From NCBI GenBank assembly GCA_014762585.1, contig JABURN010000121.1, positions 1 through 12,510 on the forward strand: a stretch of 12,510 nt of DNA. Reading direction: 5' to 3'. The position numbers and the translations under genes were made by a program. Position 1 is the stretch's first letter. Every line of letters starts with the position of its first letter. The notes under the pieces were generated by a model. It saw nothing but the letters and a program-made list of their open reading frames with translations. It was not told the origin of the DNA and made no database searches. This document shows, one piece after another, positions 286-4,160 of the stretch. The stretch comes from Methylophaga sp. (lineage in GTDB: Bacteria; Pseudomonadota; Gammaproteobacteria; Nitrosococcales; Methylophagaceae).

Positions 286-2736
<2,451 letters not shown>

Positions 2737-2739
2737 CTA

Positions 2740-3855
2740 TTATTCTACTACGTCTGGAGTTGTGTTGATAGCATCGTTCCCAGCCTCGGAAATGACGCCA
2801 TGTTCCACGTGAAACCTTTTTTCATTTTTCCCTGAAATCAATGCTTCCAGCTCTGTATTCGTACTACTTATAAAGCTCTGTACCGGCAATTCACGCAGTG
2901 TATTAAGCACTGTTCTTTGATGATGCCAGTCCAGTTCTGAGCTCAGATCATCTATTAGCAAGAGGGTGTTTTCGCGCTTTTTCTGCTCAGCTAAAATCAT
3001 GATTTGTGCCATGCTAAGCGATAGAAAAAATAACTTCTGCTGTCCTCGCGAAAGCAACTCATAGGGATCAGCATCATTTACCCTGAATGACCAGTCAGCA
3101 GCATGAGGTCCGGAACGGGTATAGCCTAAAGCTCGGTCGCGCTCGAGATTCTGGTGTAAGTATTCTGATAATTCATACTCTTTATTCCAGCCACGGAGAT
3201 ATCGCAAAGAGAATTTGTAGTCAGCTAATTCAGGGCAAAGCTTTTTGAAGAAAGGGCGGAAGTGAACAATTAATTGTTTCAGATAACGTTCACGCATCTG
3301 CGTAATAGCCAGACCATGATCGGTGAGTGCTTTATCCCATAGTGTGATTTCGTTGATTGGCTTATGTGTTTTGATTGCGGCATTGCGCTGTTGCAATACT
3401 TTTTTATAAGATTGCCAGTGATAATTAAATTGATGTTCCACGTGGAACACACCCCAATCAACCATCCTTCTGCGGAACTTCGGGCCAAGCTCAAAGTACT
3501 GGTGACAGTTTGCCGGGATGAGCTGTACAGGCAAATGAAAAGCCAGATCTGAAAGCCGTTTCAGGGGCGCATTATTCAGACGAATCTGAAGACCATTTTG
3601 AAAATCATATTGTAAGCCAATCGGTGTTTTATCTAACGAGCGTGCAAACAGGGTAAGGTGCTTGTGGTCGTATTTGACAAGATTTTTCAGAAAGCGCGAA
3701 CGAAAAGAGCGGCCCATTGCCAGTACAAAAATCGCTTCCAGTAAACTGGTTTTTCCTGAACCGTTTTCACCCAGAATGAAATTGATGCCCTCTGCAGGAA
3801 ACAGTTCCGCTTCGTTGATATTACGAAATTGGTGAATATGAATTTGGGCTAGCAC
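2740..3855 (-). CDS. recF: DNA replication and repair protein RecF
   Basis: SMC-like ATPase that, with RecO and RecR, helps load RecA at single-strand gaps and restart stalled forks. The 371-aa product has a Walker A motif GENGSGKTS (29-37), the RSGPHAAD segment (247-254), an ABC signature LLSRGQQKL (267-275) and Walker B LLLIDDLSSELD (298-309). It is slightly longer than the 357-aa E. coli protein, partly through a C-terminal tail after residue 353. The start is GTG; no clear Shine-Dalgarno sequence precedes it, but residues 3-20 match the expected RecF N-terminus. gyrB follows after 39 bp. The gene carries two parS-like sequences, each encoding FHVEH (137-141 and 348-352). dnaN, its usual upstream neighbour, is absent; rubredoxin is there instead. 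Confidence 0.96.
   Translation of the reverse strand: MLAQIHIHQFRNINEAELFPAEGINFILGENGSGKTSLLEAIFVLAMGRSFRSRFLKNLVKYDHKHLTLFARSLDKTPIGLQYDFQNGLQIRLNNAPLKRLSDLAFHLPVQLIPANCHQYFELGPKFRRRMVDWGVFHVEHQFNYHWQSYKKVLQQRNAAIKTHKPINEITLWDKALTDHGLAITQMRERYLKQLIVHFRPFFKKLCPELADYKFSLRYLRGWNKEYELSEYLHQNLERDRALGYTRSGPHAADWSFRVNDADPYELLSRGQQKLFFLSLSMAQIMILAEQKKRENTLLLIDDLSSELDWHHQRTVLNTLRELPVQSFISSTNTELEALISGKNEKRFHVEHGVISEAGNDAINTTPDVVE
2801..2816. promoter_or_regulatory. parS: parS-like ParB-binding site 1, inside the 3' end of recF
   Basis: TGTTCCACGTGAAACC differs only at its last base from the classical parS sequence TGTTCCACGTGAAACA, to which ParB/Spo0J binds to organise and segregate newly replicated origins. 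It encodes FHVEH at RecF residues 348-352. Chance occurrence at this match level in 12.5 kb is very unlikely, and a second site lies 633 bp away. Binding itself is inferred. Confidence 0.82.
3434..3449. promoter_or_regulatory. parS: parS-like ParB-binding site 2, inside recF (perfect palindrome)
   Basis: TGTTCCACGTGGAACA is a perfect 16-bp palindrome with the parS core CCACGTGG and both outer half-sites. It is the symmetric variant of the classical parS sequence. It encodes FHVEH at RecF residues 137-141. It reads identically on both strands, as expected for a dimeric ParB helix-turn-helix target. Confidence 0.85.
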
Positions 3856-3995: not shown

Positions 3996-4160
3996 TCAGA
4001 TTTCTACCATTTCGAAATCTTCTTTACCGACACCGCATTCAGGGCACTCCCAGTCTTCTGGAATCTCGTCCCATTTGGTGCCTGGCGGAATACCTTCTTC
4101 AGGCAGACCGCGAGCTTCGTCATAAATGAAGCCGCATACAATGCATTGCCATTTTTTCAT
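3996..4160 (-). CDS. rubA: Rubredoxin
   Basis: Small cytoplasmic electron carrier with one iron bound by four cysteines. The 54-residue product begins [20 protein letters not shown] and has the complete rubredoxin pattern: CxxCG at C6/C9, the [15 protein letters not shown] loop with conserved aromatics, and CPxCG at C39/C42. Length is typical for the single-domain family. AGGAG lies six bases before the ATG. It is divergent from oxyR, with 229 bp between the starts, and precedes recF on the same strand after a large hairpin. Rubredoxins can pass electrons to rubrerythrin-type peroxidases or to alkane hydroxylases; the OxyR neighbour favours a redox-stress role here, but that is inference. No rubredoxin reductase is visible in the window. 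Confidence 0.95.

Follow-up and report, generated by a model that had tools for sequence, protein, structure and literature searches.

Two 16-bp sites inside the recF gene of a Methylophaga draft genome are very probably (a chance of about nine in ten) true parS sites of the chromosome and, within the limits of the assembly, its whole centromere; ParB would load on them, and this would fix codons, and partly residues, of RecF. The reading builds on the location of the sites, their conservation, the codon constraint, the par genes, the closeness of the sites to the predicted origin of a relative and the absence of core-intact sites from well-assembled ParB-less genomes; from these we infer ParB binding and a segregation function in this organism. 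In ParABS systems, ParB is loaded as a CTP clamp and spreads, and movement of the origin is driven by ParA. Here, the parB gene, which has a parA-like neighbour, is on another contig; its product would load on both sites as a CTP-dependent clamp and spread across recF–gyrB, and ParA would move the nearby origin. As both sites are made up of recF codons, selection on ParB binding would leave the FHV[EK]H peptides with fixed synonymous positions and would also fix their residues to some extent.

Sites, partner genes and origin

The window is an entire contig (C260) of 12,510 bases from a draft genome of 2.37 Mb (260 contigs, 85.74% complete), the genus of which is placed in Gammaproteobacteria. 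Its features are listed in Table 1. RecF was identified by TIGR00611 (330 bits, cut-off 172), and its closest named relatives come from an uncultured Methylophaga MAG (88%) and M. thiooxydans DMS010 (71%). The position upstream of recF is usually occupied by dnaN; here, a short ORF is found (3996–4160, minus strand), which, read by eye, presumably resembles rubredoxin.

Table 1. Coordinates of the genes and putative ParB-binding sites in the window.
Feature	Position	Strand	Description and evidence
gyrB	286..2706	minus	3′ of recF, same direction; ORF list and TIGR01059 above cut-off
recF	2740..3855	minus	371 aa, GTG start, both sites inside; ORF list and TIGR00611
Putative parS site A, TGTTCCACGTGAAACC on the plus strand	2801..2816		Pattern search, 1 mismatch to TGTTYCACGTGRAACA; homologous place compared in 260 recF
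Putative parS site B, TGTTCCACGTGGAACA, perfect palindrome	3434..3449		Pattern search, 0 mismatches to TGTTYCACGTGRAACA

The original prediction, made from this DNA alone, had described two 16-mers in recF, one a single base away from classical parS and the other a perfect palindromic variant. Pattern search confirmed both descriptions, with the starts 633 bp apart; the 16-bp palindromic parS of a chromosomal ParABS system is present, once exactly and once with one mismatch. Both sites encode the same RecF peptide. The coding strand of site A, GGTTTCACGTGGAACA, encodes FHVEH (RecF residues 348–352, after R347), and site B encodes VFHVEH (residues 136–141). The two sites are the sole matches to TGTTYCACGTGRAACA in the window at up to three mismatches, where 0.20 are expected; two such matches were reached in 2 of 200 shuffles of the window. 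It had also been claimed that the window contains no further parS-like CACGTG site, and the three other CACGTG hexamers present, at 1551, 9547 and 11504, each lie outside any match with three or fewer mismatches.

In the whole draft, the recF pair constitutes the only matches within one mismatch; two places elsewhere have two mismatches, both lacking the CACGTG core. The absent portion of this incomplete genome could harbour more parS. Matches that are not scattered, together with the finding of parB and a parA-like neighbour, support the predicted role of recF as a putative centromere-like ParB-loading region; two of the three proposed routes to refuting this role were followed and neither refuted it. 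The gyrB gene would be expected to lie within the zone of ParB spreading.

The draft contains one TIGR00180 match, parB (194 bits, cut-off 58). The protein is related to the solved Spo0J/ParB chains 1vz0, 7bnk and 6t1f, the best being 1vz0 (Spo0J, E 5e-52), and thus has, with a score above the cut-off and solved relatives, the features of a chromosomal ParB. On contig C109, the order is gidB-like ORF, parA-like ORF, parB, atpI-like ORF; the gidB-like and atpI-like ORFs were named by eye and are presumed to be such. The parA-like ORF is located directly upstream of parB, as befits a chromosomal ParABS system. Its best NCBIfam match is NF041546 (ParA_partition), with 112 bits, below the cut-off of 180; of the 30 families that the protein matches, 25 were listed, and it exceeded the cut-off of none of these. 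ParA is assigned from similarity and position. A Noc nucleoid-occlusion system was considered and rejected, the ParB scoring 222.7 bits with TIGR04285, under the cut-off of 315. Noc is a ParB relative, and its site differs from parS.

The origin was sought in a Methylophaga relative, G022, assembled as a single contig of 3,106,976 bases, of which 20 stretches of 20 kb were sampled. In G022, recF occupies 1,425,825–1,426,931, with parB at 1,509,267 and dnaA at 1,655,119. The GC skew in ten-kb blocks is negative in 11 of 11 blocks left of the recF block and −0.004 in the recF block itself; of the 28 blocks to the right, 27 are positive and one has −0.002. In 1-kb steps, the skew is mixed over 1,426–1,434 kb, −0.16 at 1,438,001 and +0.10 at 1,440,001 (1,434–1,438 kb were left out). 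Three exact TTATCCACA boxes are situated at 1,438,734–1,438,776, in an AT-rich gap. Judging from these signals, the predicted oriC of G022 is separated from the recF sites by about 12 kb and from dnaA by 216 kb. The predicted region (L311:660–930, 1,438.66–1,438.93 kb) is flanked by genes that we take, by eye, to be dihydrofolate-reductase-like and priA-like. The dnaA gene was rejected as an origin marker in G022, since skew and DnaA boxes indicate the distant gap.

The distance between recF and dnaA is 119–228 kb in the seven genus genomes that have both on one contig (228 kb in G022); it seems that, in this genus, recF–gyrB and the origin have become separated from dnaA. The contig of the window ends before the corresponding place, no exact DnaA box occurs within its 12,510 bases, and the GC skew of its own genome is weak. 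The predicted closeness of the sites to a GC-skew origin held in the one-contig relative; the origin of the window's genome would be placed by analogy with G022. In G022, the recF sites are near the predicted origin despite the distant dnaA, which raises a testable question: is it the gene or the origin that keeps parS in place?

Occurrence of the sites and of ParB

When 23 genomes of the genus, the window's own among them, were searched within one mismatch, the site pair was found in 22, inside the recF coordinates, with a spacing of 633 bp in 20 genomes, 632 bp in G011 and 636 bp in G008. The incomplete genome G001 (55%) had no parS match and no recF match; G002 and G006 each had one extra parS match. 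In G011 (C14:9134–10203), recF is in two pieces in different frames, owing to a frameshift or an assembly error. The aligned genus set (n = 22) leaves out G011 (L094, L095) and includes G541. Site B has no mismatch in 19 of these recF and one in three; site A has none in 13 and one in nine, both homologous places being within one mismatch in 22 of 22.

In total, 260 recF were aligned: 22 from the genus, 128 from the class and 110 from the order of G279. A phylum-wide search returned loci of the same class only. The class rows are the best-scoring half, approximately, of the 305 of 369 genomes with a recF match, and they lean to query-like RecF. In the order of G279, recF was used from 79 of 109 ParB-positive and 31 of 39 ParB-less genomes, the other eight ParB-less genomes having no recF match; the order includes enteric-like bacteria, as the recF of G473 is 87.9% identical to that of E. 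coli. ParB was taken as present at a threshold of E 1e-20. Four loci without a ParB match, L187, L227, L250 and L261, come from doubtful assemblies (77, 58, 89 and 95% complete, the last being G159); all four retain site A intact. They were excluded from the codon-position scan, the core-intact counts, the tree test and the family averages; they were kept in the count of FHV after site loss and in the ParB-less codon rows, outside the residue table.

Counting sites with up to one mismatch at the homologous places, 96 of the 122 ParB-positive class genomes have both and 118 have one or both. For the order of G279, the corresponding numbers are 32 and 70 among 79 ParB-positive genomes, versus none and three among 31 ParB-less ones. 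Six class genomes lack a ParB match; two of them have both sites and five at least one. These six comprise the four doubtful assemblies and G200 and G308, which are 99% complete and in one contig. The sites of G200 and G308 have two or three mismatches, except for site A of G308, with a single mismatch in the core (CATGTG); in their ParB-positive sister, G055, the sites have 0 and 1 mismatches. When an intact CACGTG core is required, a site is kept in 196 of 223 ParB-positive and 0 of 33 ParB-less recF (the four doubtful assemblies excluded); when it is not, the numbers are 210 of 223 and 4 of 33. Pairs in the RecF tree that differ in ParB are too few for significance (three to four independent): the site follows ParB in about two and in no case opposes it, although treating G159 as ParB-less yields one opposing pair (three to four independent ParB losses).

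Coincidental matches are a practically negligible explanation. A single site with three or fewer mismatches is not very rare, given the expectation for the window, but the agreement of both places within one mismatch throughout the aligned genus and in most ParB-positive class recF speaks against it, and the codon results and the codon-position scan described below are incompatible with it.

Neither site is present in 13 of the 223 ParB-positive recF, six of which belong to family f185 (L127, L147, L164, L165, L168 and L173; seven f185 recF were seen) and three to f54 (L176, L182 and L273, the last examined at site B only). The ParB matches of f185 are weak (E 1e-56 to 1e-74), which suggests a different centromere in this family.

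The genome-wide count of parS covered 130 genomes; with six lacking a ParB match set aside, 124 ParB-positive genomes with recF contain 274 matches within one mismatch, versus 12 for a control pattern. The recF frame holds 218 of the 274, and in 88 of the 124 genomes every match is in recF. In the subset at least 95% complete (n = 98), recF accounts for 171 of 216 matches, and 68 genomes have all of theirs there. Class-wide, the share of recF is probably lower, because the genomes were drawn from those with the best-scoring recF. Any parS match is found in 315 of 369 class genomes, and none in 54. Three genomes of family f144, with no recF among the matches listed, have parS pairs only 43–106 bp apart (G171:C8:115422–115480, G283:C1:1326867–1326988 and G379:C4:214521–214616). 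In G357 (C157:5797–5998), four identical parS matches are spaced by 62 bp, and the genome has eight.

This concentration in recF bears on the possibility that ParB binds there mainly to regulate expression of recF–gyrB and that other sites serve segregation. In P. aeruginosa, an excess of ParB lowers expression around parS1–4, which the authors link to parS1 and parS2 in recF (PMC5521831). The same paper describes no derepression beside the intragenic parS1 and parS2 in parB or parS null P. aeruginosa, as judged at the native ParB level (PMC5521831). The draft is also devoid of another site within one mismatch, and most ParB-positive genomes counted have all their matches in recF; a mainly regulatory role is very unlikely.

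Codon and residue constraint in RecF

The weight of the case rests on the codon evidence. Read in frame, both places follow nTG TTY CAC GTG RAA CAn. The sample comprised the 223 recF from ParB-positive genomes, in rows where RecF has FHV[EK]. CAC, GTG and GAA/AAA occur together at site B in 167 of 173 rows and at site A in 181 of 198, versus 9.9 and 11.7 expected from the gene's own codon use. Averaged by family, parS codons are found in 76.8 of 79 (site B, 6.0 expected) and 76.6 of 81 (site A, 6.4 expected). At the F codon, for which either base is compatible with parS, both codons occur, TTC somewhat more often than expected (86 of 173 rows versus 54 at site B; 86 of 198 versus 60 at site A). 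When 227 codon positions of ParB-positive recF were scanned, the seven most constrained were residues 350, 139, 349, 138, 136, 351 and 140, all of them parS wobble positions, with z from 9.9 to 19.2; the next value was 9.4 (residue 36). These z values are inflated, since related sequences are not independent, and more trust is due to the family averages. None of the seven was among the 14 highest positions listed for the 33 ParB-less recF.

The constraint extends to the residues. Of the 223 ParB-positive RecF, 175 have V139, and none of the 33 ParB-less RecF does. Among 221 ParB-positive rows, 162 have E as the fifth residue of site A and 46 have K, a charge reversal permitted by the RAA of parS. 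After loss of the site, FHV is retained in 8 of 91 rows at site B and 10 of 57 at site A, of which five and seven, respectively, are within two mismatches.

Could FHVEH be a RecF motif under protein selection, with its parS-like codons coincidental? ParB-less RecF (n = 33) still have F137 in 30 cases, H138 in 29 and F348 in 32, so the motif is partly constrained by the protein. However, protein selection would account neither for synonymous positions that are fixed against recF codon use and rank first among 227 nor for the distribution of V139 and the exchange of E and K at site A; FHV is mostly gone once the site is gone, and FHVEH written with other codons is not common in ParB-positive genomes. 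A purely protein-level origin of the motif is very unlikely indeed. Selection for ParB binding is the preferred reading, and the comparison indicates that the sites would be kept for segregation and would fix some RecF amino acids.

Among 164 rows with both places within two mismatches, CACGTG stands at both in 157, and five rows differ between the sites. L027 has CACATG at both sites, both RecF valines being methionine, and L137 has CATGTG at both; these matched altered cores look as if they were tracking a change in ParB. CATGTG at site A, with GTG and RAA kept, is found in 14 ParB-positive recF (L046, L053, L058, L060, L062, L064–L067, L071–L073, L137 and L222), and site B is lost in most of these. 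The 16-mer most like parS in the recF of E. coli strain GF3-3 is at the place of site A, with three mismatches; the place of site B has six.

Taken across the class, it is quite probable that the main centromere of much of Gammaproteobacteria is written in recF codons. FHV[EK]H would then derive largely from ParB and not from RecF function, the residues would drift after loss of ParB or of the site, and the site-A place of E. coli would be a remnant.

Significance and comparison with known systems

The recF gene appears here as two-purpose DNA, encoding a repair protein and providing a loading place for the segregation machinery. Selection on DNA would then account for a conserved protein motif, and caution is called for in equating RecF conservation with RecF function. 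The recF sites also offer a route to centromeres in unfinished genomes.

The location of parS in recF is already known from P. aeruginosa; what appears to be new is the class-wide, codon-by-codon constraint reaching into the protein sequence. No description of parS-driven RecF codons or residues was found in openly licensed PMC papers. The distribution of parS was treated by Livny et al. in 2007, who may reportedly have described part of the wider pattern. Conservation in much of the class, the shared RecF peptide, the parS-driven choice of codons and the P. aeruginosa precedent go beyond the original prediction.

We know of no native parS in recF of Bacillus, Caulobacter or Thermus. The ParB/Spo0J–parS systems of these bacteria are alike in having a related ParB and the same type of 16-bp site, the B. 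subtilis sequence being given in PMC4368675. For Caulobacter, the recF–gyrB region is described as a hot spot for inserted parS (PMC5815017).

The closest likeness is with P. aeruginosa, where the parS nearest to oriC is located about 4 kb away, in recF (PMC3909081), and parS1 and parS2 lie within recF (PMC5521831). PMC4368675 states that any one of parS1–4 is necessary and sufficient for segregation and that, when the intragenic parS were altered with the protein unchanged, almost all altered sites bound ParB 2- to 10-fold less. It also gives parS2 and parS3 as TGTTCCACGTGGAACA, the same 16-mer as at 3434–3449 of the window, and parS1 as one base off the palindrome, without naming recF (PMC4368675). 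The two systems differ in number and setting: P. aeruginosa has ten parS, and two of the four near oriC are outside recF, whereas the Methylophaga draft has the recF pair only; recF follows dnaA–dnaN in P. aeruginosa, whereas recF–gyrB of Methylophaga lies 119–228 kb from dnaA (seven genomes).
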